The notes under the pieces: generated by a model
What the model saw: the letters and a program-made list of their open reading frames with translations, nothing else
Databases searched by the model: none
Told to the model about the DNA's origin: nothing
Part shown: positions 15,192 to 40,048 of the stretch, one piece after another
How the letters are laid out: each line of letters starts with the position of its first letter
Numbering within the stretch: the stretch's first letter is position 1
Origin: Lewinella sp. W8
Lineage (GTDB): Bacteria; Bacteroidota; Bacteroidia; Chitinophagales; Saprospiraceae
Assembly: GCF_004375085.3 (NCBI RefSeq)
Contig: NZ_SNAQ03000018.1
Span: forward strand, 62,001 to 126,000
Direction of reading: 5' to 3'
Length of the DNA: 64,000 nucleotides
Translations under genes and position numbers: made by a program

Positions 15192-15617
15192 ATGGAAAAC
15201 CGTAAAATCAAATCTTTTCTTGGTACAGGCTGGAGCTTCCCCCCTCAATTTCTGCTGGACACGGGAAGTATTTCCATGGTGAGCGAAGAAGAAGATATTC
15301 GCCAAAGCCTATTCCTCCTGTTTTCTACTACTCCCGGAGAACGTGTCATGAAACCGGAATACGGCTGCGATCTGCACAGTCTGGTTTTTGAACGGCTCAC
15401 GCCCTCCACCGAGAATCAGATGGTGGACATGATCCGCACGTCGATCATTCGCTTTGAACCCCGGATCATTCTGGAGGACGTCGTGGTGGACATGGTTGAC
15501 GCCTATCAGGGGCGCATTGACATCGGGGTACGGTACACCGTCCGGATTACTAATTCAAGAGATAACATCGTCTATCCCTTCTATTTCAAGGAAGGGACAA
15601 ACGTATTCAATATGTAA
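15192..15617 (+). CDS. GPW/gp25-like baseplate wedge protein (Afp9-like)
   Basis: The 141-residue protein is the gp25 lysozyme-like baseplate component. It contains GWSFPPQFLLDTG, EEDIRQSLFLLFSTTPGERVMKPEYGCDL, which holds the conserved EPR-like core in the form TPGERVMKPEYG, and an acidic C-terminal half. It contacts the sheath initiator ring. Its stop overlaps the leader of the large baseplate gene by only a short gap (10 bp to the likely TTG start), which suggests coupled translation. Confidence 0.94.
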   Translation: MENRKIKSFLGTGWSFPPQFLLDTGSISMVSEEEDIRQSLFLLFSTTPGERVMKPEYGCDLHSLVFERLTPSTENQMVDMIRTSIIRFEPRIILEDVVVDMVDAYQGRIDIGVRYTVRITNSRDNIVYPFYFKEGTNVFNM

Positions 15618-15627
15618 AGCCGACTGG

Positions 15628-18600
15628 TTGAAAGAAAAGGGCACAAGTTCGTTTACTAACTATCAGGGCACCGCAAGGCACCAACGTCAACTCGCGGCAC
15701 TAGACCCCTCATTTGTGGGGATAGACGAACACCAGCTTCACGATCTGCTGGCCGCCGCCGCCTCCTACGCCAAGCACATAAAATACTACAATCGTGAGGG
15801 CCAGGACCAGGCCCCCAACACGGACGAAAAGTACAACTGGTCTCCCTTTTTCCTCAAGGACGAAAGTGTTTTCCTGGCCACACTCCTGAGTGCCGATCTC
15901 TCCCCGTTTGACGACCTGATTCAGGAGTCCTTTCTCAACATTCACCACGACCAGAGCCCGGAGAAGCAACGGTCAACCCTGGAACAGCTCATCGATAGCC
16001 TGCTGGATCTGACCGGCCTCCTCTTCAGTTGGCACCAGCAAGCCAGGGACTTACGCTCCTGGAACGAAGAGCACCGAATCGAGCAGGAAATAGACCGGGC
16101 CATGCTGGGGGACCTGGGAATACAGTTCCGCGCGTTTAAAATCATTGTCCGTGCAGCCCCCCAGACCTTCGGGCTGGACAAAAAGGTACAAAGTAGCTGG
16201 AACCAGCAATTGGCTTCCTTCCCCGACACCTGGGACCGGGAGGAACAGCGCTCCTTCATCCAGGGAGAAGAGAGTTCTTCGCGGGATCTGGGGGATAAGC
16301 TCAAGTTTGCCGGTGCGCGGCTTCAGGAATACTACCGTCGGTTGTACTTCACGATGGCTTACCTGATGGAATTGAGTGAGTCCCTGTTTACGGAATCCAT
16401 TACCAACCGTAATGACCATAACCCCCAAATTGGGCTTTTCATCAGTTTCCTGAAGCTATTTGGAGAAGCCCAGCGGGAGCTGAATTCAATTACCGGGCGT
16501 CATCTTGACTACTACTACGAGGAAGTACTCGGGCTACGTCCTCGGGGGGGCGTACCGGATTCCACTACGATTTGCCTGGAGACGGTTCCCGGGGTTCGGG
16601 AGGTCGTCATCCCGTCGGGCACGCTGTTTCTGGCGGGCGTCAACGCAGAGGGTGTTCCCTCTCACTATAAAATCCTCCGGGAGCTGATCGCCACCCCGGC
16701 GAGCGTGGCGGTGCTGAAGACCGTTTTTGTCAGCAAGAACCCCATCGTGCAAACCGGAAGTTCTTACCGACTGGTTTCGGCGATCTACGCCGCCCCGGTA
16801 GCCAACTCCGCCGATGGGCGGGGAGGAGCCTTTACGGGTACGGACACCAGCTGGCCCGTACTGGGGGAGGATCAGTTTGATTTTGGTAAGAAGGATCGCC
16901 AGATGGTCACCTCAACGCTGGGCTTCGCGTTTTGCTCCAGCACCCTGCTCGTCGGGGAAGGTAGCCGGGAAGTAAAAATGACCTTACGCTTCACCCCCGC
17001 TTCCTTCCTGACGCTGCGGGATCTGCTCGACGACATTGCCAATAACTCGGAGGGGAAATCCAGTAGAGGAGATATTTTCTCTTCCGTATTTACGCACCCC
17101 TTCCTACTTTCTCATACGGGCCCTGAAGGTTGGGTGGAAATCGAAAAATACCGCATTCTTCCCCCGCCCGAAGAAAGTTGGAACACTCCGGTACTCACGC
17201 TGGAATTCCAATTGGATCAGTCGGCCCCCGCCATCACGCCTTACGACCCTTCCCTCCATCAGGAAGCCTTCACGACTTCCTGGCCCGTACTTAAGGTACT
17301 GCTGAGTGACCAGGAGGCGATTTATGGATACTCTTTCCTCCGGGACCTGGAACTTGAAGAAATATCCCTGGATGTCTCCGTAAAGGGCCTAAAAAATATT
17401 ACCGCCAATAATGACCAGGGGCTGCTCGATGCCTCTGGTCCTTTTCTTCCTTTTGGCCCCTTTCCCCGGAAAAACAGCTACTTCCTCTTCGGTCACCAGG
17501 AATTGTTCAACAAACCACTCGACTCCCTGAATGTACACATTGAATGGGGAGAAACGCCCGAAACGGATAATGGCTTTGCGGACCATTATGCTGCCTACGA
17601 TCAGGACATCACCAACGAGAGCTTTACCGTAAGGGTAAGCGGTTTGACGGATTATGCCTTCCAGCCCGGAAGCCGTGAACAACAGGAGGAATTCCCACTC
17701 TTCTCCAGCCATTACGTCCAACAGCCAGCACTTTCTCCACATACGACGATTGAGATCGATGAAGCCAGCCTGAGGCGAATGCAGTTTCGGCCCTTATTCC
17801 ACCTGACGGAGCTTCCACCCTACGATAACGGCTGCCGTACGGGTTATTTCAAGTTCAACCTGGCGGCGCCCTCCATGGCCTTCGGGCACGCGCTGTACCC
17901 CCGGCTGTTTGCCCGGGTAATGGCCGAAAATGCCCGTCCGCGCCCCTTTCGACTCTTCGGTGAAGCGGAGGAAGAACCGCTGGTGATTCCTAACGAACCC
18001 TACACGCCGGTCATTAACCAGATAAGCCTGGATTATACCGCTTCCACCACCCTGAAACTGGGTCGCCTTGACCAACGAGAAAATAACCCCACGGAGGACA
18101 ACGCACTGTTTCGTCTTCATCCTTTCGGGCAGGAGACGGTCTACCAGAAGGGGCTACTGACTACTCCCCATCTGTGTCCGCGGTTTGATGAAGATGGCTA
18201 TTTATATATCGGCATCCGGGATCTACACCCCCCGCAGCAGCTGTCGCTTTTCTTTGATCTGGAGGAAAGTGAGAAAAAATTCAGTCGGGGAGCACCGGAC
18301 GTGAAGTGGCATTACCTCCACGGGGAAGAATGGCGGCCCTTCCCCGTACAACATATACTTTCTGACACCACGGTCAAGCTGTCCACGAGTGGCATTCTTC
18401 ACCTCTATTGTTCCGAAGAAATGACCAGGGGCACCCACCTGCTGGGCCCGGACGTCCACTGGATCCGAGCGTCGTCAGCGGGCAATCTTTCTACTGCGGG
18501 GCGGTGCCGGGCCATTCTCTCCAACGCCGTGGACGCCTCGTGGATTGACAACGGAGATGACCACCATTTGAAAACTCCACCCGCAGACCGGCCGCCCATC

Positions 18601-19512
18601 ACCGAGCCGGTCGTGACCCTTGCGGGCATCAGTAAGGTAACCCAGCCAGCGGCCTTCTCAAAAGGCATGCCGGCCGAGCAAAAATCTGCCTACTACGTCC
18701 GTAACAGCGAGCGGCTGAGGCACAAAAACCGGGGGGTGAACGTCTGGGATATCGAACGCCTCGTGCTGGAATCCTTTCCCGACATCCAGCAGGTAAAATG
18801 CATCGGCAAGCACATGCACGAGGATATCCTCGGGGTCGGAGAGGTGCTGGTGGTGGTCATTCCCCGGATATCCGGCCCCAACCCCACGCCAAGGGTGGGA
18901 TACCATATTCTTCAGGAAATTCAGGAGTACCTGAAGTCGCTGTCCTCGGTTTTTGCCGACATCCGCGTCATCAATCCGGTTTACGAACGGCTCAAGGTGA
19001 GTTGCCACGTAAAACTGACCAAAGAGAGTACCCTTCACCGAGGACGGGCGCTGAAGGAGGTGGAGGATGCGATAAAAAACTACGTCTGCCCGTGGTTAGG
19101 CGGAGGTTCCGTCAACCTTGGCGGGTCGGTAAGTAAGACCGAGATCCTTGCCATCATCAATGAATGCCGACACATCCAGTATACTACTGGCTTTTCCATG
19201 GTGCTCATCTACGAAAAACAAGATGACTTCTACTCCCTGGAAGACACGGCGGTGGAGGATACCAATGCAGAAATCCTTACGGCCAGCCGGCCGTGGAGTG
19301 TCTTGATTCCACTCGAAGAGCATCAGATCGAAATTCTCGAAACCGATGACCACCAGTTTGAGTCCATCACGGCCATCGACCGGATGCGGCTAGAGGCCGA
19401 CTTCATCATCCTGGAAGAAGGCGGCGAGGATATGGACCTTCCATCTCCCTCCGGTAGCGGCCAAGACGGAGCCGCCGACTTTGACCTTCCCCCCTCCTGG
19501 TTAACCCCATAA
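15628..19512 (+). CDS. Large baseplate J / gp6-like wedge protein (Afp11-like)
   Basis: The reading frame opens further upstream inside gp25. Protein similarity starts at KEKGTSSFTNYQGTARHQRQL, so a TTG at 15628 is the likely start (about 1294 residues). The N-terminus has the eCIS pattern DEHQLHDLLAAAASYAKHIKYYN. A baseplate-J-like domain occupies about residues 1080-1230: VVVIPRISGPNPTPRVGYHI, FADIRVINPVYERLKVSC, and TKTEILAIINECRHIQY in the form SKTEILAIINECRHIQYT. The central 700 residues contain many beta-rich insertions (surface domains). It forms the iris of the baseplate with the gp7-like partner encoded two genes downstream. Confidence 0.92.
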   Translation: MKEKGTSSFTNYQGTARHQRQLAALDPSFVGIDEHQLHDLLAAAASYAKHIKYYNREGQDQAPNTDEKYNWSPFFLKDESVFLATLLSADLSPFDDLIQESFLNIHHDQSPEKQRSTLEQLIDSLLDLTGLLFSWHQQARDLRSWNEEHRIEQEIDRAMLGDLGIQFRAFKIIVRAAPQTFGLDKKVQSSWNQQLASFPDTWDREEQRSFIQGEESSSRDLGDKLKFAGARLQEYYRRLYFTMAYLMELSESLFTESITNRNDHNPQIGLFISFLKLFGEAQRELNSITGRHLDYYYEEVLGLRPRGGVPDSTTICLETVPGVREVVIPSGTLFLAGVNAEGVPSHYKILRELIATPASVAVLKTVFVSKNPIVQTGSSYRLVSAIYAAPVANSADGRGGAFTGTDTSWPVLGEDQFDFGKKDRQMVTSTLGFAFCSSTLLVGEGSREVKMTLRFTPASFLTLRDLLDDIANNSEGKSSRGDIFSSVFTHPFLLSHTGPEGWVEIEKYRILPPPEESWNTPVLTLEFQLDQSAPAITPYDPSLHQEAFTTSWPVLKVLLSDQEAIYGYSFLRDLELEEISLDVSVKGLKNITANNDQGLLDASGPFLPFGPFPRKNSYFLFGHQELFNKPLDSLNVHIEWGETPETDNGFADHYAAYDQDITNESFTVRVSGLTDYAFQPGSREQQEEFPLFSSHYVQQPALSPHTTIEIDEASLRRMQFRPLFHLTELPPYDNGCRTGYFKFNLAAPSMAFGHALYPRLFARVMAENARPRPFRLFGEAEEEPLVIPNEPYTPVINQISLDYTASTTLKLGRLDQRENNPTEDNALFRLHPFGQETVYQKGLLTTPHLCPRFDEDGYLYIGIRDLHPPQQLSLFFDLEESEKKFSRGAPDVKWHYLHGEEWRPFPVQHILSDTTVKLSTSGILHLYCSEEMTRGTHLLGPDVHWIRASSAGNLSTAGRCRAILSNAVDASWIDNGDDHHLKTPPADRPPITEPVVTLAGISKVTQPAAFSKGMPAEQKSAYYVRNSERLRHKNRGVNVWDIERLVLESFPDIQQVKCIGKHMHEDILGVGEVLVVVIPRISGPNPTPRVGYHILQEIQEYLKSLSSVFADIRVINPVYERLKVSCHVKLTKESTLHRGRALKEVEDAIKNYVCPWLGGGSVNLGGSVSKTEILAIINECRHIQYTTGFSMVLIYEKQDDFYSLEDTAVEDTNAEILTASRPWSVLIPLEEHQIEILETDDHQFESITAIDRMRLEADFIILEEGGEDMDLPSPSGSGQDGAADFDLPPSWLTP

Positions 19513-19521
19513 TCTTTACCC

Positions 19522-20340
19522 ATGTTAATGAACCGAGCCTCCCTGAAAAGTCTATTCAGCAAAGGAAAATTTCCTTCCGAAAATCACTTTGCCCACCTAA
19601 TTGACTCAACCGTCAATAAAATGGAGGATGGCATCGGAAAGTCAGCGGAGGAAGGCCTACAATTGTCGCCGCAAGGAGAAGCGGACCCGGTGCTGAGCAT
19701 TTACGAGCGCATGGACGTCGAGCGGCCTTCCTGGCAACTCAAATTACTCCGGGACAACGATGCCCGGGGACTGAGCTTTGAAAAACTGGGGAAGGATGAG
19801 TTTAATCAGGAAACCTCTGCGAGCCGTTTGTTTCTCAGTAACGAAGGGAATATTGGCGTAAATACCACCCAGCCCCTTAGTGACCTTCACGTAAACGGTA
19901 CCCTGGGCCATAATGCGCGGATTGGCACGCTGGTAATGGGGGAGGTGGAAGGTGACGGAAAGTGGCACACCGTCATTGGCGGCCTTTCCGGGCCCCAGGC
20001 GTTTGAAGCGGTGGCCCGCATTGACGGCCCGACGGGAAAGGCCAAATATGCCTTTACGCACGCGATTGCCCTTAGCACTTATGGCGGAAGACGATCACGG
20101 TGGAAAATCAAGCAGACCAGGGCCTACTACGGTTGGTTTTGGAACCGAATTGATTTCAAATGGGACGGCGACACCTTTGCGTACGCCCTCAAGGTGAGAA
20201 CCAGACAAAATTACGGCAAAGGAGAAGACGGCAGCTACAGCAAGATTCGCTTCCATCTTTCTTCCCTCTGGGACGACCGTTTGTTTTCTTCCCAGCATTT
20301 CACCCCCACGGCACCAACCGGGGAAAAAGAAAATGCCTAA
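19522..20340 (+). CDS. Fibre-like protein, candidate receptor-binding component
   Basis: This 272-residue protein begins with a short helical anchor (RASLKSLFSKGKFPSENHFAHLIDSTVNK). A fibre-like head follows (NEGNIGVNTTQPLSDLHVNGTL), a motif common at the start of Bacteroidota tail-fibre and chaperone-type adhesins. The C-terminal 120 residues are aromatic and beta-rich (AYYGWFWNRIDFKWDGD). It sits between the gp6-like and gp7-like genes. A role in target recognition or baseplate decoration is inferred from position and motif. Two possible ATGs, 19522 and 19528, cannot be told apart. Confidence 0.75.
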   Translation: MLMNRASLKSLFSKGKFPSENHFAHLIDSTVNKMEDGIGKSAEEGLQLSPQGEADPVLSIYERMDVERPSWQLKLLRDNDARGLSFEKLGKDEFNQETSASRLFLSNEGNIGVNTTQPLSDLHVNGTLGHNARIGTLVMGEVEGDGKWHTVIGGLSGPQAFEAVARIDGPTGKAKYAFTHAIALSTYGGRRSRWKIKQTRAYYGWFWNRIDFKWDGDTFAYALKVRTRQNYGKGEDGSYSKIRFHLSSLWDDRLFSSQHFTPTAPTGEKENA

Positions 20341-20343
20341 ACC

Positions 20344-23300
20344 ATGGAAGAGCACCAGTCGGTAATTCGCAAGGAGGAACTTTCCCGTGGGCTCAATTAT
20401 GATGACCTGCGGCTACGGGGCATTGCTCACGCCCAGCAACTGTCCGGGGCCACGTGGACGGACTACAACGTCCATGATCCCGGCGTCACCCTGCTGGAAT
20501 ATCTCTGCTTTGCGTTAACGGACCTCAGCTACCGGGCGAATTTTGACATTCGGGACATCCTGTACGCGAACGATGACCAGGGTAAACCCGACATCAATAA
20601 CGCCTTCTTTCCGGCCCACGAGATTCTACCCACTACTCCCCTGACGCCCCACGATTACCGGCGTTTGCTCATCGATCAGGTCAAGGATATTCGCAACGCC
20701 TGGTTCGACCCCATTTTAAACCACCAACGAGAATACCGGGGACTGTTTAAAGTCCGGATTCAGTTAGCCGAAGACATTGACCGCACCCTTCCCAGGGAGA
20801 AAGTACTGGCTTCCGTCAGGGAACTGCTCATGGCCCACCGCAATCTGTGCGAGGACCTGGACGACATTGTCATTCTTAAAACCGAGCACATCCATTTTTC
20901 TGCCGTAATCGAGATCCAACCCGATGCTTTTGGGGAAATGGTCATTGCCCGGATTCTTCATACGGTGGAACAAAAACTGAATCCAGGTATCCGCTACTAC
21001 ACCAAGGAAGAGTTGCTGGCGGAAGGTCTGTCCATCAGCGAAATCTTTGATGGTCCCGAACCCGTGCACGGTTTCATAAAGCCCGAGAGCCTGAAGAAAT
21101 TCCCGGACAACACCAACATTTCTGAACTCCGCGAAGAAATTTCCGCCGTAGAGGGCGTCAAATTGATCAACGATCTGAAGGTATGGAAGGAAGGGCAAAG
21201 GATTACGGGGGATGAGATTGTCCCCGGCCAGGACGCAGCCCTTAGTCTGGACCCGTCGATGATTGAAGGTACTGGGCAGCTTGGCGAGCTTAAGTTGCTG
21301 CGCAACGGGGTTTCCGTATCCATCAATCCCCGCCAAACCCGGCAATTTTACAATAACCTTTCGGCCAAAGGGAAAAAGGGATTTCAACTGAAACTGAAGC
21401 TCGGTGAGCCCCCGGCAGTATCCCACAAAAAAGTCCGGGATCTGCGGTCATACTACTCGCTGCAACGCCTCCTGCCCGCCGTCTACGGACTGGGAGCTTA
21501 CGGACCACCCGCCACCGCCAACCGCAGTCATCGGGCGTACATTTCCCAGCTTAAGGGGTACCTGATTTTTTTTGAACAACTAATGGCCAACTACCTGGCC
21601 CAACTGGCCAACGTTCGTCACCTGTTCTCCATCGCGGAAGAGAAGGACCCCGCCGGAAAAACGCATGAACCCAGCTATTTCTATCAATTTCCGCATGATA
21701 TTCCCGAAGGGATTAACCTGGTCAATACGACCGAAGAGAATCCGTCGCCGGAAGTAATTGAGGAGTTGATCCAGGAAGTTTTCGGAGCCTTTGACCCCGC
21801 CGACGAGCGACGAGGACGTTTTCTGGACCACCTGTTGGCCCGCTTTGGGGAAACCTACGCCGGAGACTACCTGAAATTGCTCAACCACGAATCCCGCGAA
21901 GAGATCACCCACCAGTTGCTCAGGGGGAAAGCCGCATATCTCCGCCACTATTGCGAAATCAGCCGGTACCGAAGCCGGGGATTCAATTATCTGAAGGAGG
22001 CCTGGGAAAACGAAAACGTATCCGGACTCAAGAAGCGACTTGCCCTTCAGCTAAACCTGCACGACTCCCTGCCCGGTAGTCAGACCCCGAAATACCAAAA
22101 CCGTTTTCTGGGCAAGAACCGATACATTGACGATCTCCTGGGTTTCCGGGAGGAAAAGGCCGATGGTAAGCAAAGCCGCTCCAGGCTGTCCTTCGGTAAA
22201 ATCATCCGCAAGGGGTGCCAGGCCAGCAATTACGACATTTCCGGCAGGGGAAAAAATATGCGACTCACCCTGAAGGAACAAAAGCTTCCCGGTGGGGGCA
22301 AGTCCCCTTTCGGTACGGATGGTGCGAACGCCGACAAAGCGGGCAAATCCCAATCTTCGGGCGCGGACGCAGGTGCCACGATCACCCGGGGCAGCAAAGA
22401 CAACCTGGAGAAGGTCCGGGATAAGCTTCTGCGGCGATTCAATGACATTAACCTCCAGGGAGAAGGCTTCTTCCTGCTGGAAAACATCCTCCTCCGCCCC
22501 CGGGCCCGGCCCGGAAGCATGTTGGTCTTCGAAATGCCCCTACCCATTGAGTTGGGCCTGGAAAGCATTGAGTTGCGTACTCCGCACTTTACCACGGAGA
22601 AAGAACTCCAGGACCTTAGCAATGAACTGTTGTTACTGGGCGCTCAGGTAAAGAACTGGTCCTTGCTGGAAACGGATGAAGGATGGTCCATCGTCCTGTC
22701 AAAACATCAGTCTCCACGCCTACTCAGTGCTCCGATTCGCGTTGGCAGTACTCAGCGGGAAGGGTCCGAAAGTCCGGAGCAGGCACAAAAAATCCTGGAC
22801 TTTCTTCACCAAACCGTAACGAATTTGCGGGACCACAATCCACCGGCCCTGCAGGAATACCTGAGGTTTGAGGGGGAGCGCCTTCCCGGACACTCCGTTA
22901 ACTCCGATTTCTATTCCCTCCGTCTGAGTATGGTGGCCCCGAACTGGCCCGTGAAATTTCATGAGCGCGACTTTCAACAGCTCTTCCAGCAGGTGGTTGC
23001 CCGGAATATTCCCGCCCACCTCAGCGTCGACTACTACTGGTTATCCGTAACGGACATGCGGGAATTCGAGGGTCACTTCAAGACCTGGTTGGAGGCGTTG
23101 AAAAACGAAGACGACCGGCAACACCAAGCTGCCTCCCTGCAACTTATCCGAATCCTTCGTGGCCAGCAGTCCGACCAATCCGAGGGAGAAAAATATCAGG
23201 GTTTTCCACGGTCGCTTCTGGAGCGCCTGACGCAGCGGTTTGGGTACGGATTTCTGCTCTCGGAGGATGACCTCGGCCTGTTCATCTGCAACCGCCCGCA

Positions 23301-24489
23301 GGTCGTCTACCTGCTCAAGGAAGAAGGTATTGATACCTGGCAAAAACTCCGCAGAACGTCCACGTCGGAGCTGGAGAAATTGCTGATCCGAAAAGGTGAG
23401 AAAATTGATCCGAAAGAAATTGCGGGGTGGAGACGGCAGGCGGCCCTGGCCCTGGATGGACAATGGTCAGACCTGCAGGAGTATCAGGAGCAGTTTATGG
23501 CCTCCGCCGAGTACGGTCCTTCCCCTCGTCGCCCGACGGCTAAGGTGGAGCGAAAGCTAAGGGAATTGGCTAAATCCCCCGACGTATTGCTGGACCGAAT
23601 CGAATCGTGGATCGCCCGGTATCCCTCTTCCAGAAGTTTACCCATCAACCTGCTTGATTTCCTTTGTGGAGCGGCGGGATACGGATTCATCATCCCCGAA
23701 AATGACCTCCAGATTCTCCCCGGCCTAACGGAACAACTCCGGGCGGGCCTTCAGGGCCAGGGCATTACTACCCGCCTACTGCTAAGTGAGATGGACGAAT
23801 CCAGATGGCAGAGCATTCTCAATCAGTTTCAAATTACGGAAGGCGCTCCCTCCTTCGAAGAAATTCACGCATACAGCACCCTGGCGGCCAACGGGCGCCG
23901 GGAAGACTGGGAACAACTTCTCCGGGTCCAGCGGGAAAATCATCCGGACCGGACTCACTCACCCCTGCAGGACAGACTATCCTATCACCTTGAGCGTCTG
24001 CGAAAGGGCACGTCGGAAGTAACCCTGGAGAAAACGATCCTCACCCGACTCAGGGATTGGCGGGCGACGGAAAGCTCCTGGCACATTACCCCGAAGCTGC
24101 TTGAGATACTGCTATCGGAGGGTACCGACACCATTGTGTTCCCCGTCGATGACCTGACCGTAGTTGAGGGAATCGGTGAAAAATATGCCGACGTATTGTG
24201 TTCGTCAGGGATCGAAGACCTTGAATCCCTCGGGGCCCAGCGGCCCGCTTCACTCTACAATCAGCTGCGGGACAAAAACCTGAGCGTTAACGTTCCACAG
24301 CTTACCTTCTGGATCGACCAGGCCCAGCTCGCTACGGACCACCAGTGGCAGTCGCTGATCGACCTGCAGAAACACGGTGAAACGGACCTGCTGCAATCGG
24401 CCCGGATTGAGACACCCCTAAGGAGGCGCATTCAAGCCTGGCTGGACGCAAACGCCAGCTCACACTCCGCCAGATCAACCAGAAAATGA
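20344..24489 (+). CDS. Large gp7-like baseplate protein with three C-terminal helix-hairpin-helix modules
   Basis: The 1381-residue protein opens with the Afp12/gp7-type signature (WTDYNVHDPGVTLLEYLCFALTDLSY, residues about 38-63, shortened here to TDYNVHDPGVTLLEYL). It therefore partners the baseplate-J protein in the wedge. From residue 968 on it differs from the usual pattern. Three related modules begin at 968, 1113 and 1263, each with (E/P)xDDL, a hairpin such as VEGIGEKYADVL, a GI pair, and WxxQAxLAxdxqWxxLxxxQ. This matches the DUF4332-like helix-hairpin-helix module known from other Bacteroidota proteins. A low-complexity linker lies near 655-690. Its stop overlaps the next start (ATGA). 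Confidence 0.88.
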   Translation: MEEHQSVIRKEELSRGLNYDDLRLRGIAHAQQLSGATWTDYNVHDPGVTLLEYLCFALTDLSYRANFDIRDILYANDDQGKPDINNAFFPAHEILPTTPLTPHDYRRLLIDQVKDIRNAWFDPILNHQREYRGLFKVRIQLAEDIDRTLPREKVLASVRELLMAHRNLCEDLDDIVILKTEHIHFSAVIEIQPDAFGEMVIARILHTVEQKLNPGIRYYTKEELLAEGLSISEIFDGPEPVHGFIKPESLKKFPDNTNISELREEISAVEGVKLINDLKVWKEGQRITGDEIVPGQDAALSLDPSMIEGTGQLGELKLLRNGVSVSINPRQTRQFYNNLSAKGKKGFQLKLKLGEPPAVSHKKVRDLRSYYSLQRLLPAVYGLGAYGPPATANRSHRAYISQLKGYLIFFEQLMANYLAQLANVRHLFSIAEEKDPAGKTHEPSYFYQFPHDIPEGINLVNTTEENPSPEVIEELIQEVFGAFDPADERRGRFLDHLLARFGETYAGDYLKLLNHESREEITHQLLRGKAAYLRHYCEISRYRSRGFNYLKEAWENENVSGLKKRLALQLNLHDSLPGSQTPKYQNRFLGKNRYIDDLLGFREEKADGKQSRSRLSFGKIIRKGCQASNYDISGRGKNMRLTLKEQKLPGGGKSPFGTDGANADKAGKSQSSGADAGATITRGSKDNLEKVRDKLLRRFNDINLQGEGFFLLENILLRPRARPGSMLVFEMPLPIELGLESIELRTPHFTTEKELQDLSNELLLLGAQVKNWSLLETDEGWSIVLSKHQSPRLLSAPIRVGSTQREGSESPEQAQKILDFLHQTVTNLRDHNPPALQEYLRFEGERLPGHSVNSDFYSLRLSMVAPNWPVKFHERDFQQLFQQVVARNIPAHLSVDYYWLSVTDMREFEGHFKTWLEALKNEDDRQHQAASLQLIRILRGQQSDQSEGEKYQGFPRSLLERLTQRFGYGFLLSEDDLGLFICNRPQVVYLLKEEGIDTWQKLRRTSTSELEKLLIRKGEKIDPKEIAGWRRQAALALDGQWSDLQEYQEQFMASAEYGPSPRRPTAKVERKLRELAKSPDVLLDRIESWIARYPSSRSLPINLLDFLCGAAGYGFIIPENDLQILPGLTEQLRAGLQGQGITTRLLLSEMDESRWQSILNQFQITEGAPSFEEIHAYSTLAANGRREDWEQLLRVQRENHPDRTHSPLQDRLSYHLERLRKGTSEVTLEKTILTRLRDWRATESSWHITPKLLEILLSEGTDTIVFPVDDLTVVEGIGEKYADVLCSSGIEDLESLGAQRPASLYNQLRDKNLSVNVPQLTFWIDQAQLATDHQWQSLIDLQKHGETDLLQSARIETPLRRRIQAWLDANASSHSARSTRK
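23245..24393 (+). repeat. Three diverged HhH modules inside the gp7-like gene
   Basis: The modules start at 23245, 23680 and 24130 (spacing 145 and 150 codons). Each has about 85 residues of recognisable similarity followed by a helical linker of about 60. They are too diverged at DNA level for a recent duplication. The first keeps WRRQAALALDGQWSDLQ and the third WIDQAQLATDHQWQSLID; the second has lost the tryptophan and the canonical spacing but keeps ENDLQILPGL. Confidence 0.7.
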
Positions 24490-27400
24490 GCCGCACAAAC
24501 ATCATTGGGCGGCACCGGTTTCGCATCACGGTAACTTCCCCGCGGGAAGCAGATTTCATCTTTGAAACCATCAGCGACCTGTCGAAACGAAAACTTCCGG
24601 AGGCATTGGAACGGACTTTATCCAGGCATGACGTCCGGAATCAGGTAATTAAAATTGACCGGCTTAATCTCAACCTGGGCGAACTCCCCAAACAGGGGTT
24701 TGAGCAAGAACTCTTGAAGCGTTTATCGACGGCCCTCGACGAAGCACTTCAAAACAATGGTGCGCCCCAACCATCAAGGATTCAACCCATCCGACAGAGC
24801 GAAGAGGACCTGGTAATTCATTATTTACGTCACGGCTATTTCCCGTGGAGATACACCAGTGCCGATGCTCGTGGGGTATCGGACATGCTGATCGACGTGC
24901 TGGAAAAAGCACCAAACTCCCTGAGGAGGAAGCTGAAAAAGATGTTGGGCGTGTCCAGCATAAGGAAACGGCTGGCCCAGCACTTCTCGCTGGAAAGCCT
25001 GCGTAAGCTTAAAGAAATAAGCTGGGGAGCGGGAAAAACCAGGGAACAGCTCATCTTGCACGAATTAATCCTGGCCGGTAGAGCGGGAGGCCTGGGGGCG
25101 GTGCCCCCCCGAAACATGGAGGCGGGCTTTCTGGTAGCTGCCGCCGGTTCCACACCCCGGGAATCCGCACAAGCATCGTCCATCAGGTGGGCAGCCAGAC
25201 TGATTAATGAGGTGGGAGACATTCTGGGTATTCCCCCCAGGCTGCTAAGTCAGCTCCTGTTGGATGGTGCCCGGGAGGATGACATTTTAATTTCCAAAAC
25301 TACCGCTCGGGCAATTCGCAGCATTTCTTCTTCGCCTGCCCCCGTTACCCCACCTGCGCATACGGGACGGGAAGAGACGAGGGCCGTCCTTCAATTTCTC
25401 CGCTCCGGAAGGGTACCAGCACCATTCAACTTGTCGGCATCCGGCATGGAAGGCCTGCTGAAAAAACGGATGGAGAAGGGTGACGAAGTGGTGGTGAAGG
25501 CCCTGGAGAAAATTTTTCGTGACCTTTCCTTCAGGCAGCAATTACCGCGGCGGTTTTCCGGATCAATGGTCACTTTTCTTTACCGGTGGTGGTGGAGGGA
25601 CAATTGGGAAATTTTCCAAAAATATCGGGAAGACGTGACCTATCTGCTCTTCACCATTGATTCCGCTACCAAAACGAAAACGGATCTCCGTAACTGGGTA
25701 CAGGCTAAGTTATCGGGAGCGGGAAACTGGCAACGCCCGGTACTGCCCGATCAACGGGCGATCGGCAACTTGCTGACGGATTGGGGCCAGGACTGTGGCA
25801 TCCCGGTACCGGAAGTGATGATGCGAGCAAGGGCCGCCATTCAGGAGGCCAGGGCCTGGGAGAGCTCGCTCCCTACCCTCGTGGATACGCTGGAGAACGC
25901 AGCAGCGTCCACAACCTTTACCGACAGCCTTCCAAACCGGGTACTGTTTCTGTTGCGGCATTATCTCGACAATGGCTTTTTGCCCGCCACCGACGCGCAG
26001 CATGGCCTCCTTCGGTTGGAGGAGCAAATACTTCCCCTGCTTCATCAGCTCAACCCAGAACTTTTTTTATTACTCCTTGATCGACTGGTCGAAAGGAAAG
26101 CACGATCCCGATTGGCTAACGGCTTTTCGGCGGATTTCCTCGAAACCGTCCTGGTAGGCTTGATGCAACTGGCCTCCGGAGAAAGCTCCGCGGGGGAGGT
26201 GCTCGGGCAATCAGGATCGGTTGGCCCCGCAGCCCGTGACCATGACGCTGCTCCTCCGGAAGATTCACGGCACCTGCCCTCCGGGCCCATCTCCACTGAC
26301 CAGGAGCCGGGGCCTTCTCCGGAGAAAGAAGAGACCGATCAGGAAACCAGAACTTCTTCAGCATCAACGGGGGCGTCCAAAATAGCGCGGGACGCGAGTA
26401 CTCCGCCCGCAAAAGTTTCCGAAAGCGACCTTCCGCCAAATTCTGACCTTGAAGGAAAAGGATCTTCCCATGCGAACAGGGACGATTCCGGCACCTCGCC
26501 ATCCGCAGAGCAGCGGCAGGAAGCGAGAAACGCCCCAACTTCCCCACCCGACCGGGCCTTGCCGATTGCCGATAAAAATAGCGACTCCCCTACCTCGCCC
26601 ACCCGCCAAACCACTGCTGACCTAACGGCAACGGCCGGTCGTGATCCTCTCCAACCTTCAAAAGATTCTCCATTGGCCGGTTCCTCAGAAGGAGGTAGCA
26701 CTGGTGACGTCCCGGTCTCCGCCCCCCGGAATGCCCCGGCTACTCCGCCCCCAAATTCCACCTGGGGAATTTTTTACCGTAGCCTACCCAATTTGTACCC
26801 GGAAGGAACCCGCTGGAAACCCACCCGGGAGAGCTATCTGAGGGACATGAAATTAATGATGCTCGGGGCGCTGGCAGACCCCGGCATGAAGCAGCCTTCC
26901 ATGGGTAGTATTCTGTTACGGTGGGCCAGAGTCTTGAAGGATAATTACCGGCCCACAGCTCCAGAATTTTCTGCCTACCTCCATTTCCTGGTCGGGCAGG
27001 ATTCCCTTCCAACGCCCCTGCGGAATGCGGTCAGGGTAATGCAGGATATGGAGGAAAAAACCACGGCGGAAGTGGTCAGCCGAGCACCGGAAACGGCCGA
27101 TCAACTCCCCCCCGATAAAAGCACCCAACGTGACGAAATGGTGGAAGAATGGGTTACCTGGATTCGGGGAGGGAGGACTTCTGATGGGAAACGCCCCTCG
27201 CTCAGCGACCTGCGAACAATCATCAAACTTCCGGATCAGGCGTGGAGACACTTCCTCGGGAGCATCCAGGGAAAACAACTTCGGCTGGATCGGTTCCTGC
27301 AACTGCTTTCCGACGAGTTGTGGCAGGCCCTTCACCGGCGGCTCATTAACCATTACCTGCCCGGGCACCGAGGAGTCCTGGAGGCGCTGCGTGAGGCCAT

Positions 27401-30053
27401 TCACGGTAGTAAGCTTTACCCGAATGAGAAAACGACCAACCAGCAATATAAGCGGTATACCCTGGAGGTTCTCTGGGGCAAAGGGCCACTGCCCTTCACG
27501 GGGTATTCGTTTACCTTAAAGCTCGTGTCCCTGATTGCCCGGGAAAAGCGATTGACGACTACCGGGGTGGCCCAGCAGCTTCAACGGCACCTTGATCCGG
27601 ACGAAGGACACCCCGGATTACTGGAAATACTGGCAAGGATCATCGCTCAGATATCCGAAAAGGAGAAGGCGCAAATTGAAAGAGAGGAAGCCCGTCATCG
27701 GGAACAATTCCGCCAGATCGAGGCCGGGGCCCGAGAGGGTACTTTCTTCGTGGCCGCCCTGCAGTATTTTCTTGACCATGGCGGTATTCCCTGGTGGGCA
27801 GCTCCGGAAATCTCTGACCTGAACATGCTCTGGGAAAGGGCCATTCAGGCCGACATGGATGGTTTGAGGGTATTCCTGAGGGATAGACCAAATCACGCCG
27901 GAGCGTTACTCCCCTTCCTGACGCGGAAAAATTGGCGCAGTTTTCTGAAAGCAAGGTTTCCTGCCTACGTCGACTTTTTGGAAGCCTTTGCTGCCGCAAA
28001 CGAAGTCCTCATTAATTCCGGCGGGTACGGGGAACTTTCGGGCTTGCAGAAGGAGTGGCTTTCGGGATGGAATTTTGCCGTGGAGGCCGAGGAATTCAGT
28101 AGTGAGGGCTTTTTGCTCCGGGCAATTCCGGAGTCCGCTGCGGCCTTCGGACTTCCGGTCGACCAATACCTGGATATTTTCCGTGCGGAAGTAAACGCCT
28201 CCGTAGTTCTCGGTCAGCTATCATTTTACGCACTCTCCAGAGTGTTGGAGGACCTCATCGAACGCGGAGCACTGGCTTCACCCCTGCCCGAAGCCCCCGA
28301 TGCCCGAGAGAAGGTGGATGCTCGGCGGGAGGCCGGCAGCTCCCCGCAAGATGGCCCTGAAGACCTCCCGGCGGGCGTAGGGGAAGCCCCTACTTCCGCA
28401 GCGGCCGCCGACGGGGAGGGCTCGCCACCCGAGTCGACGCCATCCGACACCAAAGGAGCCGGGGAGGAAGTCGCTGTGCAAAAGGCGGTAGGAAGCTCCC
28501 CACAAGATGGCCCTGAAGACCTCCCCTCGGGCGTAGGGGAAGCCCCCACTTCCGCAGCGGCCGCCGACGGGGAGGGCTCGCCACCCGAGTCGACGCAATC
28601 CGACACCAAAGGAGCAAGGGAGGAAGACGTTGTGCAAAAGGCGGCCGGCAGCTCCCCGCAAGATGGCCCTAAAGACCTCCCGTCGGGCGAAGGGGAAGTT
28701 CCCACTTCCGCGGCGCCCACCGACCGGGAAGGCTCGTCTCCTAAGTCGACGCAATCCGACACCAAAGGAGCCGGGGAGGAAGGATCGGCTACTCTCACGG
28801 GTGCCGGGCAGGAGGATCAGAACGTCGCGACGGACGGGGAGTCTCTCCTTCCGGGAGATACCGCTGCCCCCTTGGGAGAAAGACTAGAAGAGGGGGCCAC
28901 TGGCGATTCAGCTCCTTCCGGTTCGGGGGTTCCGCCCAAGAGCTACGCAGAAACGCTCGGTGAGGAACTGTATCTGGTCGGTCATTTTCTGCGGTACGGC
29001 GCACCTCCCCCAGAAAACATTTCGGTGCCCCGGGAACGGTTGCTATTGCTTCAGGAGCGCTTGCTCAATTTGCATCCCGAGTTGGTGCTCCCCGTATACC
29101 GGTCGGCATTTCGGGAGGTCGGTGGAAGAAACCGATTGCTGCACTTTTTTCCGGAAAGCTTGTGGCTCCAGATTGCCCAGCGCATGATGGGCCGGGAACT
29201 AAGCAGCGTGCAACGCCGCTGGCGAGACATTAGGACCTTACTCGCCAAGACTCCTCTCAGTCTATCCGAAGATGCCTTCCGCCACCAGGTCTGGCACCAT
29301 CTTTTGCGATACCTTGGAGAGCAAGACCAGAAGGTTAATGTTCCTGATTTTACGGAGCAGTTGCTGAAAGATCTGGCGATCAAAGTATCCAGTCCTGTGG
29401 AAACCTTGCTCAATACCCTGCGCGAAGGACTTTCGTCTGCTCCGGAAAGTATTGACGGCAAGGAATGGGATGAAGTACTGGGCGCTATCCAGAAGCGAAG
29501 AATTGAACAACAAACTGAAAATATGGAAGGTGACGGACACCTGATTGAGGAAGCTATTTTTATTGAAAACGCAGGACTGGTTATTCTCGGCCCCTTCCTC
29601 GCCCGGTATTTTTCGACCCTGAACATGCTGGACGGAAAAGTCTTCGCCAGCGAAGAGCAGGCCATACGGGGAGCCCAACTGCTACAGTACGTGGCCACGG
29701 GGCTGACGGAATCTCCGGAGCATTTGCTGGTATTCAATAAGATTCTATGCGGCCTCCATCCTTCGGTTCCCGTTCCGGGGTCCATCGACCTTACGGAAAA
29801 AGAAGAACAGGTATCCAGTCAGCTACTCCAGGCCGTCATGCAAAACTGGGACAAGATGAAGAACTCCACCGTCGAAAATTTTCGGGGATCTTTTGTACTA
29901 CGCCCGGGGATGCTCATGGAACGCGAGGATCAATGGTCCCTGGCGGTAGAATCTGCGGGATACGACGTACTCCTTAAATTTCTTCCCTGGACCATCTCCG
30001 TCGTGCGATTGCCCTGGATGGAGAAATTTATTACGGTAGATTGGAAAACCTAA
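24486..30053 (+). CDS. Contractile injection system tape-measure protein (CIS_TMP family)
   Basis: This very large protein (1855 residues) should set particle length. The family N-terminus is seen in VIKIDRLNLNLGELPKQ (about 56-72). The family C-terminus begins with FIENAGLVILGPFLARYF and ends ESAGYDVLLKFLPWTISVV with RLPWMEKFITVDW. In between, at least five copies of a degenerate motif LxxFLRxGxxP lie near residues 108, 299, 485, 1088 and 1493. Two Pro/Ser/Asp-rich segments (about 561-758 and 1262-1481) look disordered; the second contains three exact-period 52-residue repeats. It overlaps the gp7-like stop (ATGA) and is followed by the ATPase after 10 bp. Confidence 0.9.
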   Translation: MSRTNIIGRHRFRITVTSPREADFIFETISDLSKRKLPEALERTLSRHDVRNQVIKIDRLNLNLGELPKQGFEQELLKRLSTALDEALQNNGAPQPSRIQPIRQSEEDLVIHYLRHGYFPWRYTSADARGVSDMLIDVLEKAPNSLRRKLKKMLGVSSIRKRLAQHFSLESLRKLKEISWGAGKTREQLILHELILAGRAGGLGAVPPRNMEAGFLVAAAGSTPRESAQASSIRWAARLINEVGDILGIPPRLLSQLLLDGAREDDILISKTTARAIRSISSSPAPVTPPAHTGREETRAVLQFLRSGRVPAPFNLSASGMEGLLKKRMEKGDEVVVKALEKIFRDLSFRQQLPRRFSGSMVTFLYRWWWRDNWEIFQKYREDVTYLLFTIDSATKTKTDLRNWVQAKLSGAGNWQRPVLPDQRAIGNLLTDWGQDCGIPVPEVMMRARAAIQEARAWESSLPTLVDTLENAAASTTFTDSLPNRVLFLLRHYLDNGFLPATDAQHGLLRLEEQILPLLHQLNPELFLLLLDRLVERKARSRLANGFSADFLETVLVGLMQLASGESSAGEVLGQSGSVGPAARDHDAAPPEDSRHLPSGPISTDQEPGPSPEKEETDQETRTSSASTGASKIARDASTPPAKVSESDLPPNSDLEGKGSSHANRDDSGTSPSAEQRQEARNAPTSPPDRALPIADKNSDSPTSPTRQTTADLTATAGRDPLQPSKDSPLAGSSEGGSTGDVPVSAPRNAPATPPPNSTWGIFYRSLPNLYPEGTRWKPTRESYLRDMKLMMLGALADPGMKQPSMGSILLRWARVLKDNYRPTAPEFSAYLHFLVGQDSLPTPLRNAVRVMQDMEEKTTAEVVSRAPETADQLPPDKSTQRDEMVEEWVTWIRGGRTSDGKRPSLSDLRTIIKLPDQAWRHFLGSIQGKQLRLDRFLQLLSDELWQALHRRLINHYLPGHRGVLEALREAIHGSKLYPNEKTTNQQYKRYTLEVLWGKGPLPFTGYSFTLKLVSLIAREKRLTTTGVAQQLQRHLDPDEGHPGLLEILARIIAQISEKEKAQIEREEARHREQFRQIEAGAREGTFFVAALQYFLDHGGIPWWAAPEISDLNMLWERAIQADMDGLRVFLRDRPNHAGALLPFLTRKNWRSFLKARFPAYVDFLEAFAAANEVLINSGGYGELSGLQKEWLSGWNFAVEAEEFSSEGFLLRAIPESAAAFGLPVDQYLDIFRAEVNASVVLGQLSFYALSRVLEDLIERGALASPLPEAPDAREKVDARREAGSSPQDGPEDLPAGVGEAPTSAAAADGEGSPPESTPSDTKGAGEEVAVQKAVGSSPQDGPEDLPSGVGEAPTSAAAADGEGSPPESTQSDTKGAREEDVVQKAAGSSPQDGPKDLPSGEGEVPTSAAPTDREGSSPKSTQSDTKGAGEEGSATLTGAGQEDQNVATDGESLLPGDTAAPLGERLEEGATGDSAPSGSGVPPKSYAETLGEELYLVGHFLRYGAPPPENISVPRERLLLLQERLLNLHPELVLPVYRSAFREVGGRNRLLHFFPESLWLQIAQRMMGRELSSVQRRWRDIRTLLAKTPLSLSEDAFRHQVWHHLLRYLGEQDQKVNVPDFTEQLLKDLAIKVSSPVETLLNTLREGLSSAPESIDGKEWDEVLGAIQKRRIEQQTENMEGDGHLIEEAIFIENAGLVILGPFLARYFSTLNMLDGKVFASEEQAIRGAQLLQYVATGLTESPEHLLVFNKILCGLHPSVPVPGSIDLTEKEEQVSSQLLQAVMQNWDKMKNSTVENFRGSFVLRPGMLMEREDQWSLAVESAGYDVLLKFLPWTISVVRLPWMEKFITVDWKT
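28335..28782 (+). repeat. 156-bp tandem repeat, three copies, in tape-measure gene
   Basis: Copies begin at 28335, 28491 and 28647 with a period of exactly 156 bp (52 codons). Copies one and two are almost identical in DNA; copy three is more diverged and ends early. The repeat encodes GSSPQDGPEDLP, then GEAPTSAAAADGEGS, then SDTKGAGEE. The in-frame period means copies can be gained or lost without breaking the gene. Confidence 0.93.
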
Positions 30054-30063
30054 ACAAATTGAG

Positions 30064-31509
30064 ATGAGCAATCTGGAAGCTAATGCCGTCGCCCTGGGAA
30101 AGGAATACCAGTGGTTCAATGAAGTCATTGAGGCTCGTTTCACGCGATATTTCCAACCCGCAGCGGACGCTCCGGACGTACAGGATTTGGTTCCTCCCGA
30201 TCACGCGGAAGGGGCCGGCCCCTACGTAGATTACCTAAAGGGGTTAGCGGATAAAATTCCCCAATCTGACGAAGGTCCGGTTTCCCACACCGAGCAGGTT
30301 ACCGCCCACCGTCTGCTCCTGCTGCTGGCCCTGGCTCCTCACCTACAGCCCGCTACCCTGGACGTTTTTTTCACCAAAAACACCAATTTCGACCGGGGAT
30401 TTACCGAGTTTGGCGGACTAACCGGAAAACAACACGGTGGCTTCCTCCCCACGGGAGAAACGGCGCTCTTTTTACTGGCTGGAGGCGACCTCCGCCGACG
30501 AATGTTTTTTACCGGCCTCTTTGAGGAATCCCATTTTCTCTACACCGAGAACGTCCTTCAACTCTCCGGACAAAAGGCCGACGAACCCTTCCTGAGCGGA
30601 CAGTTGACCATCAGTAATGAATACCTGACCAGGTTCACCACCGGCGATGAATTCCGCCCCCGCTATTCCTCCAACTTCCCCGCCAAACACTTACAAACGC
30701 CGCTGGAGTGGGACGACCTGGTGCTCGAGGCACCGCTGGAAGCCCAGGTGCTGGAGCTAGCTTCCTGGATGAGCAGCGAGGCGATCATCCTGGGGAAATG
30801 GCAAATGACGCGCCTGTTTAAGCCCGGCTACCGGGCGCTTTTCCACGGCCCTCCGGGAACGGGAAAAACACTTTGTGCTACCCTGATCGGCAAGAAACTG
30901 GGGCTACCCGTGTACCGAATTGATCTTTCTCAGGTCGTATCGAAATACATCGGCGAAACGGAGAAAAACCTCGCCAACCTGTTCAACATCGCGGAGCACA
31001 AAAACTGGATACTTTTCTTCGACGAAGCGGACGCACTCTTTGGCAAGCGTACGGCCACCAAGGACGCCCACGACCGCTACGCCAATCAGGAAGTATCCTA
31101 TCTACTGCAACGCATCGAGGATTTCCCCAGCCTGGTTATCCTGGCCACCAACCTGAAGGCCAACATCGACGACGCCTTCGCCCGCCGCTTTCAGTCCATC
31201 CTGTACTTTCCCGTTCCCGGTCCACTCCAGCGGCTGGAGTTATGGGAAAATGCCTTCGGAGAAAACTTGCCCCTCGAAGCGGAAGTGGACCTGAAGCAAC
31301 TGGCCCGAGAGTACGAAATTTCGGGAGGCGACATCGTAAACGTGGTGCGTTACTGCGCCCTGAAGGCCGCCCAACGGGTGCGGGAAGAACACGAAAAGCG
31401 GGCGGAAGAACCGCCCCCGAAGGTGATCGAAGCCATACGCAAAATCCGGAAACGGGATATCCTCGAGGGCATTCGCCGTGAACTCCGCAAGCAGGGCAAG
31501 ACGGTGTAG
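30064..31509 (+). CDS. AAA+ ATPase of the injection system (Afp15/Pvc15-like)
   Basis: The 481-residue protein has an N-terminal helical part (to about 220), then an AAA+ core. The core has Walker A GPPGTGKT (about 262-269), Walker B WILFFDEADALFG (about 315-327), sensor-1 LVILATN (about 358) and the arginine pair in DDAFARRF. The C-terminal lid is followed by a basic helix (IRKIRKRDILEGIRREL). In Afp/PVC this ATPase is needed for assembly but is not part of the particle. It is the last gene on this strand and its stop lies 11 bp from the stop of the converging DUF4407 gene. Confidence 0.95.
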   Translation: MSNLEANAVALGKEYQWFNEVIEARFTRYFQPAADAPDVQDLVPPDHAEGAGPYVDYLKGLADKIPQSDEGPVSHTEQVTAHRLLLLLALAPHLQPATLDVFFTKNTNFDRGFTEFGGLTGKQHGGFLPTGETALFLLAGGDLRRRMFFTGLFEESHFLYTENVLQLSGQKADEPFLSGQLTISNEYLTRFTTGDEFRPRYSSNFPAKHLQTPLEWDDLVLEAPLEAQVLELASWMSSEAIILGKWQMTRLFKPGYRALFHGPPGTGKTLCATLIGKKLGLPVYRIDLSQVVSKYIGETEKNLANLFNIAEHKNWILFFDEADALFGKRTATKDAHDRYANQEVSYLLQRIEDFPSLVILATNLKANIDDAFARRFQSILYFPVPGPLQRLELWENAFGENLPLEAEVDLKQLAREYEISGGDIVNVVRYCALKAAQRVREEHEKRAEEPPPKVIEAIRKIRKRDILEGIRRELRKQGKTV

Positions 31510-31520
31510 TACGGTTGCTT

Positions 31521-32690
31521 TCAGGACGGATGCTCGCTGGCCGAACCTTCCCGGAGCTTACGCATCCGCTCCTCGGCCAGCCAGGCGTCGATTTGATCCT
31601 GGACAATTTCCATGCGGGCATCCGCCATGGCCCGCATCGCTTCCTGTTTCTGCCGGACCTCCTCGGCAATCTCTACGTTATGGAGTTCGTGGTGCTTGGC
31701 GATTTCCTTGTTCATCGCCAGCTTTTCGACCTCAATGCGCCGCAGTTGTTCCAGATAAAATTCGTGCTCGATCCGCGCCAGCAGTTCGTCGTAGGGGCCC
31801 CGTGGGGCCAGGAGCTTGGTCAGGAGTGGGGAAACCTCAATGAGGATAAACAGCAGGATGATGAACAGTCCCGGCCCGGCGGGTAATTCTCCGGAAGCCG
31901 ACAATCTGGCCAGTAAACCCCGGGACACGGCGGCTTCGGCCTCCTCGGTAGCCAGTCGGGCCGTAGCTTCCAACTCCTCGATTTGTGCCCGAATGGCCTC
32001 CCTGGCCCCATCGTTCTGCAGCTTCATTTCCCGGTATTCCCGGTCCGTCGCCAGGTATTTCTGCTCCTTGCGGGCGCACTCACTACCCCGGCCCCGCTTT
32101 CCGGTACCACAGGTTCCGTCACATTCACACTTGTAATCCTGGTAGTCCTGCTCCCGGCGCTGGAGGGCCGCTTCGGTTTGACGCTCAAGCTGGCCGATTC
32201 GTTCTTCCAGTACCTGGCGCCGGTCCAGGATCGCGGCACCTGCGGCCTCGCCCTTCGTCCTTTGCCGTTCCGTCAATACTTCGTTGATCTCCTCCTGAAA
32301 GATGCGTAATTCCAGCGGCTTGGCGATGACGATGGCCAGGGAAATGGCCAGCAGAAAGCGGGGAATAGCCAGCGTAAGCTGCCGGGAAAAGGGACCTTCC
32401 TTCTTCAGGGTCGAGACGATGTAACGATCCAGGTTAAAGATGATCAGCCCCCACAGTGCGCCAAAAGCCACCGCTGCTCCCAGGTGTTCAAAAACGGTGA
32501 AGAAAGCGTACCCGCCCGACAGCGTCGCCAAAAGGCCCGTGAAAAAGACCGTTCCCCCAATTCCGGTAAACTTGGCGTGCTCAGACCGCGGGCAGGCGGC
32601 CAGAACTTCCGGATGGGCGCCGGAGCAAAACCACAGGAACCGCATGATGGCGGGCGGTTTAGGGACGGATGGGCGCGAGCGCAGGTTCAT
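31521..32690 (-). CDS. DUF4407 membrane protein with cytoplasmic coiled coil
   Basis: The frame opens at 32759, but the ATG at 32690 forms an ATGA overlap with the stop of the upstream gene (32689-32687), the better start (389 residues). About three membrane helices near the N-terminus are followed by a Cys/Gly patch (CECDGTCGTGKRGRGSEC) in the middle of a long coiled coil, then another helix (GPGLFIILLFILIEVSPLL). This is the DUF4407 layout. Function unknown. It converges on the injection ATPase and is probably co-transcribed with the Ig-like and STAND genes; a membrane anchor or signalling partner is possible. Confidence 0.85.
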   Translation of the reverse strand: MNLRSRPSVPKPPAIMRFLWFCSGAHPEVLAACPRSEHAKFTGIGGTVFFTGLLATLSGGYAFFTVFEHLGAAVAFGALWGLIIFNLDRYIVSTLKKEGPFSRQLTLAIPRFLLAISLAIVIAKPLELRIFQEEINEVLTERQRTKGEAAGAAILDRRQVLEERIGQLERQTEAALQRREQDYQDYKCECDGTCGTGKRGRGSECARKEQKYLATDREYREMKLQNDGAREAIRAQIEELEATARLATEEAEAAVSRGLLARLSASGELPAGPGLFIILLFILIEVSPLLTKLLAPRGPYDELLARIEHEFYLEQLRRIEVEKLAMNKEIAKHHELHNVEIAEEVRQKQEAMRAMADARMEIVQDQIDAWLAEERMRKLREGSASEHPS

Positions 32691-37726: not shown

Positions 37727-37996
37727 GGAGAAAAATTAGTGGTATGGCCACCGTCTGGGGTGGTGTCGGGGAGGAGATTTCTCACAACGAACGACAACGC
37801 CAGCGAGGCCCTTCAAAGCAGCAATTTTAAGGTACGGGAAAAAACAAAAAAAAGCGAAATACCGCACTTCTGCGTTTATAAACAGGTAAATACACCTACT
37901 ATTTTTTAGTAAGTTTCCCCTATCATGCAACTAGGTTTCCCCGCTGGCCCTCCGAAGTGAAATTCTTGGGTTTTTCTCTGCTTTCGGTATTAAAGT
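37727..37996. other. Divergent intergenic region
   Basis: This region lies between the NTPase (minus) and the secreted-protein gene (plus) and should hold both promoters. A TA-AAG-TTTG sequence near 37991-37999 resembles a -7 box for the plus strand. The middle (about 37840-37920) is AT-rich. No open frame with protein features is seen. Confidence 0.4.
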
Positions 37997-40012: not shown

Positions 40013-40048
40013 TGGCCATCGTGAACCCGAGAAAAACCTGATTAACCC

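Follow-up and report, generated by a model that had tools for sequence, protein, structure and literature searches.

Here we describe a 64,000-nucleotide stretch of the Lewinella sp. W8 genome (contig NZ_SNAQ03000018.1, positions 62,001 to 126,000; hereafter, the window), in which a baseplate wedge protein of an extracellular contractile injection system (eCIS) ends in an arm of three helix-hairpin-helix (HhH) modules. The arm is an add-on and not a core domain of the protein, and we put at about 0.5 the probability that it is a lineage-specific protein-docking arm on the exposed end of the wedge. The gene and its parts are as follows.

20344..24489 (+), Alg12/Cis12-type baseplate wedge protein (gp6/gp7-like) with a C-terminal HhH arm, assigned by phmmer to PDB
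20344..23178 (+), conserved core, residues 1-945, common to arm-less relatives
22897..23178 (+), last conserved core domain, residues 852-945
23194..24486 (+), C-terminal extension (arm), residues 951-1381 (431 residues)
23260..23505 (+), HhH/DUF4332 module 1, residues 973-1054, without a GxG hairpin; WRRQAALA...W..L...Q kept
23692..23934 (+), HhH module 2, residues 1117-1197, diverged in sequence; predicted fold HhH-like
24145..24375 (+), HhH/DUF4332 module 3, residues 1268-1344, with a canonical GIG at residues 1276-1278 (24169-24177)

The frame is intact and its product is 1381 amino acids long. Searching this protein against PDB with phmmer returned All3315/Cis12 (4.3e-84), Alg12 (1.1e-75), Pvc12 (9.3e-23) and Afp12 (1.9e-17), with the All3315 matches covering residues 9-129, 131-574 and 853-923. 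Judged by these matches, the product is a wedge protein of the Alg12/Cis12 type, gp6-like plus gp7-like combined, in agreement with a preliminary description of the window that had called it a gp7-like baseplate protein. The arm sits directly behind the last core domain (residues 852-945).

That the arm consists of three DUF4332/HhH modules was confirmed, with the fold class assigned by prediction. Pfam DUF4332 (PF14229; gathering cut-off 23.2) scored 35.7 bits on the whole protein and 40.9 bits on residues 951-1381, in two stretches. To avoid circularity, we used a hidden Markov model (HMM) built from 39 modules of relatives' non-eCIS proteins, themselves identified through their resemblance to modules 1 and 3. 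This HMM gave 60.5 bits at residues 973-1054, 11.4 bits at 1117-1197 and 50.4 bits at 1268-1344, while the top domain score among 2000 composition-preserving shuffles of the extension was 6.4 bits. These domains fit the module starts first proposed (968, 1113 and 1263), and their scores bear out the view that the first and third modules are clear and the second diverged. Taken alone, module 2 is weak (E 0.08 in the survey search), but its counterparts in a pair of relatives of the same layout score 16.4 and 27.3 bits. Predicted structures of modules 3 and 2 match solved HhH domains, mostly DNA-binding ones, and the HhH assignment of module 1 rests on its sequence score; a non-HhH fold for residues 960-1380 did not emerge.

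The motifs that the preliminary description had attributed to every module survive only in part. The opening motifs are SEDDL, PENDL and PVDDL in modules 1, 2 and 3, so that (E/P)xDDL in the form proposed holds only for module 3. The hairpin site reads FICNRP in module 1, P-G-L-T in module 2 and G-I-G in module 3, the only one with GxG, and modules 1 and 3 retain WxxQAxLA, which module 2 has lost. An extra conserved helix precedes each module (LPxxLLxxLxxxxGYGF in the first two modules, a diverged form in the third), giving a repeat spacing of around 145-150 residues. The arm evolves faster than the core, and the W, Q, A and L positions of modules 1 and 3 are invariant over three species at 27-38% identity. 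A PDB sequence search of the arm returned only ribosomal L4 (E 0.76), PHROGs gave no match for the whole protein or the arm, and searches with the arm found none in plasmids and none confirmed by arm alignment in viral contigs.

We inspected 20 + 80 + 30 + 40 stretches plus the window, the 80 being the best of 503 confirmed. Among the 171 gp7-like frames that these contain, 150 are distinct (145 of these reach their C-terminus within the stretch), and HhH modules were found in seven of the 150. The window protein, G006 and G018 carry three modules each, G042 carries two, and G007, G221 and G317 carry one each. Neolewinella lacunae KCTC 42187 (L090), to which G006 seems to correspond, has this three-module arm. 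All seven fall in a single clade of eight (Shimodaira-Hasegawa-like approximate likelihood ratio support, 99), whose eighth member, L037, has no modules; the tree was computed under LG+G4 without mixture, in quick mode, from the 70 best-scoring of 108 rows. Because so few frames carry modules, all of them in one clade, the arm is an add-on rather than a core domain. It is not present in all Afp12 homologues, and its earlier characterization as grafted stands. Parsimony on the clade gives two changes: most simply, a single gain of one module was followed by copying to two or three in some species and by one loss, a direction suggested by the tree. When the whole arm was used as a query, the three-module form was found in 3 of 398 family genomes at E <= 1e-18, a threshold that misses weaker forms (G042 went unreported, as did G221 and G317, apparently from the same draw), and only in the window's own genome in a phylum draw of 395. 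Further whole-arm hits (G326, G179 and G027) fall within frames of 337-417 amino acids. A gp7-like match at E <= 1e-30 is present in 110 of the 398 family genomes, part of which the fetched stretches cover. Giant gp7-like frames of 1789-2348 amino acids also occur in the family (L050, L051, L052 and L113), with large insertions and no HhH modules.

The module itself is widespread in the family: 59 of 100 genomes, the window's included, match the arm one or more times at E <= 0.001. Hosts examined in 27 fetched loci of other proteins, together with one protein of the own genome, include the ribosomal proteins bL27 and bS16 (Pfam-confirmed in one case each), a proprotein P-domain protein (confirmed) and a glycogen-binding-type protein (AMPK1_CBM 24.2 bits, slightly below the cut-off of 26.8). 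By eye, the module is often paired on proteins that combine a hydrophobic N-terminal segment with a coiled coil. The same module had been expected to occur singly elsewhere in the group; it does occur elsewhere in the family, but several proteins carry pairs. Some of the non-eCIS modules score slightly below the Pfam cut-offs for DUF4332/HHH_5. Given its presence on many unrelated proteins of the family, the module carried by the eCIS protein is a promiscuous, family-specific add-on. Loci of bL27 or bS16 with an appended HhH module include L058, L063, L064, L066, L068 and others, and no published account of HhH modules on these two proteins was found in the literature searched.

In Cis12-type homologues, a C-terminal YPxAxLHDCED...LNQTxLGT peptide comes after the last core domain; the Cis12 end matches a relative's tail with an i-Evalue of 6.6e-8, and the Alg12 version is weaker (0.23). 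The peptide is absent from the window protein and, by pattern, from all 38 rows of its larger group (0/38), and is present in 27 of the other 70 rows, a pattern count and hence an undercount. PMC13314943, on AlgoCIS firing, reports that the trimer of the Alg19 fibre is held by the C-terminal loop of Alg12, in the manner of TssK by TssG; because the peptide is the very C-terminus, we infer that it corresponds to this loop. Between the two wedge genes of the window lies a candidate fibre gene.

19522..20340 (+), 272-aa fibre-like gene (fib272), with a weak N-terminal Cis13/All3316 match

The Cis13/All3316 match has an E value of 0.029, and a short fibre-repeat match to Bdellovibrio bd2133 has one of 3e-6. 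We scored 87 loci, having set aside 3 duplicates and a further 11 loci in which the gene end was cut or the upstream sequence was shorter than 2.5 kb. The peptide alone was found in 27, a fib272 homologue alone in 46, neither in 14 and both in none (Fisher 1.5e-12, a value that ignores phylogeny and depends on a peptide pattern that was not blind). This suggests that fib272 homologues and the Cis12-type peptide belong to two alternative fibre-attachment systems. As the peptide is absent here and never occurs together with fib272, the arm extends from the free terminus of a kind of wedge that apparently relies on a different fibre system.

HhH modules of the DNA-binding type contact the backbone through a GxG hairpin. 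This hairpin is kept in 4 of 14 eCIS modules, compared with 38 of 39 modules on other proteins (p 5e-7); one of the 14 matches (L035, the G007 module) ends before the hairpin and was scored as having none, the RMP at this site being read by eye. Within the three-module proteins, GxG is confined to the last module, and all three single-module proteins are without it (two scored, the third by eye). Since most eCIS modules have lost GxG, the fold probably serves protein contacts. Nucleic-acid binding, which the preliminary description had offered alongside protein binding, is disfavoured by these counts, and docking to a protein or a membrane is the best reading of the arm. The loading of cargo, also suggested in that description, gained no support, as none of the present results speaks to it.

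As a protein-docking arm, the extension would have arisen when, in a single clade, a DUF4332-type HhH module, the family's promiscuous add-on, was joined to the C-terminal end of an Alg12-type protein. With one arm per wedge, as homology predicts, six three-module arms would surround the baseplate edge of the particle. Exposed in this way, the HhH fold would serve to bind other proteins, fastening to the rim of the baseplate a fibre, a neighbouring baseplate or a protein of the envelope.

A related but unlikely alternative is that the arm tethers the baseplate to a protein in the membrane, giving a cell-associated rather than a released particle. A precedent exists in the thylakoid contractile injection system, where, as PMC8894136 describes it, an extra Cis12 domain reaches the membrane as a 'wide connector', and the family's HhH pairs on proteins with hydrophobic N-terminal segments and coiled coils point the same way. 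However, the Cis12 extension (610-1100) precedes the last core domain, while the HhH arm comes after it. Neither the arm nor fib272 contains a transmembrane-like stretch (maximum Kyte-Doolittle values of 1.54 over 19 residues and 0.55, respectively, compared with 2.31 for the control, DUF4407), which speaks against a transmembrane anchor in either. No partner was found: in an all-against-all comparison of the carrier loci for a shared partner gene, the matches listed were mainly shadow frames of core genes.

It is improbable, in our estimate, that the modules form a platform holding DNA or RNA, for instance in nucleoid tethering or as nucleic-acid cargo. The predicted folds do match mostly DNA-binding HhH domains, module 3 has its GIG, and relatives fuse the same module to bL27 and bS16; weighing more heavily are the low share of GxG among eCIS modules and its absence from the three single-module proteins. 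The window modules are also acidic (net -3, -5 and -7), a property given little weight because charge varies widely among relatives. We consider it similarly doubtful that the domain was inserted passively, being fused and amplified without a specific task or as a spacer. Such an origin would suit a module found on so many unrelated proteins, its absence from L037 and the faster evolution of the arm, but it sits poorly with the invariant W, Q, A and L positions of modules 1 and 3 and with the modules being kept by 7 of the 8 clade members. A long shot, finally, is that some Saprospiraceae-type eCISs swapped a TssK-like fibre dock for arms built from the modular HhH 'connector' of their own family, six per baseplate with up to 18 modules, that clip it to HhH-bearing scaffolds such as the cell's own coiled-coil (HhH)2 proteins with hydrophobic N-termini; if true, such arms would be a further tethering mode for injection machines, besides the membrane complex of the type VI secretion system and thylakoid connectors.

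The HhH-armed gene belongs to an eCIS cluster that comprises a Pvc16-type cap, a cap-adaptor-like protein, sheath, two tubes, a tube/LysM protein, a VgrG-like hub, gp25, an Alg11-type wedge, the 272-aa fibre-like gene, the HhH-armed gene, a tape measure and an AAA ATPase. Its other closest neighbours are listed below.

15454..19512 (+), Alg11/Cis11-type wedge protein, with All3317/Alg11 matches
24486..30053 (+), tape measure protein (CIS_TMP), whose start overlaps the end of the HhH-armed gene in an ATGA
30064..31509 (+), AAA+ ATPase of the eCIS cluster

With its listed TTG start, the gene at 15454..19512 overlaps that of gp25, and alignments with most relatives begin only around residue 44-72; its length and All3317/Alg11 matches would place the product in the cage class of the Alg11/Cis11-type protein. 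Just upstream of the cap gene, a frame of approximately 80-116 amino acids is present in at least five carrier genomes (L209:9400, L034:969, L207:13034, L208:13344 and L205:16844). A DUF4407 gene (31521-32759, -) is convergent with the AAA ATPase gene, an arrangement shared by N. lacunae (L206 5318-6496), and DUF4407 matches are also present in L107 and L153. Further along, at 33923-41839, an nSTAND1-WD40 gene (-), an uncharacterised 671-aa gene and a GH18 glycosidase, whose start resembles a signal peptide, are linked to the eCIS. This linkage is kept in N. lacunae, G007 and G042, with GH18 alone in G221 (loci L200, L206, L208 and L205). Across a set of 80 loci, GH18 matches were found in two and nSTAND in one, the 9-kb flanks often being too short to reach these genes.

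The protein family, the module and the idea of a hotspot are already known; their combination is new, and no report of HhH domains on eCIS baseplates was found in the literature searched. In this marine bacterium, a small module stands where other homologues carry the peptide that would hold the fibre, making it a well-placed case of wedge-end re-engineering. The natural series of 0, 1, 2 and 3 modules within the clade offers a handle on what the C-terminal position of the wedge does.

Among known systems, the HhH fold is shared with the NusA AR2 domain (6ib8_C) and the N-terminal domain of RadA/Rad51, with no sequence relation apparent beyond it, and a shared fold shows no function. Modules classed as DUF4332/HHH_5 (PF14229, PF14520) are the same module by profile and share the W..QA.LA...W..L...Q tail of window modules 1 and 3, but those of the window have diverged hairpins, stand three in tandem and are carried by a baseplate protein. 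Solved homologues of the window core are Alg12 of AlgoCIS (PDB 7aeb, 9wsz) and Cis12/All3315 of the Anabaena thylakoid system (7b5h). The YPxAxLHDCED...LxxTxLGT end is clear in Cis12 and weak in Alg12, whereas the window protein lacks it and ends in the HhH arm; the extension of Cis12 lies within the chain, while that of the window protein is C-terminal. Compared with fibre attachment by TssG-TssK and Alg12-Alg19 (PMC13314943), the arm occupies the corresponding end of a protein of the same kind, but the peptide that would dock the fibre is missing throughout the window's group. According to a recent survey (PMC12923769), Afp12 homologues are the predicted anchor of most eCIS fibres. Finally, PMC8894135 presents the gp7-like portion as located on the baseplate's outer side, as interacting there with fibres or thought to build superstructures, and as a hotspot for re-engineering.

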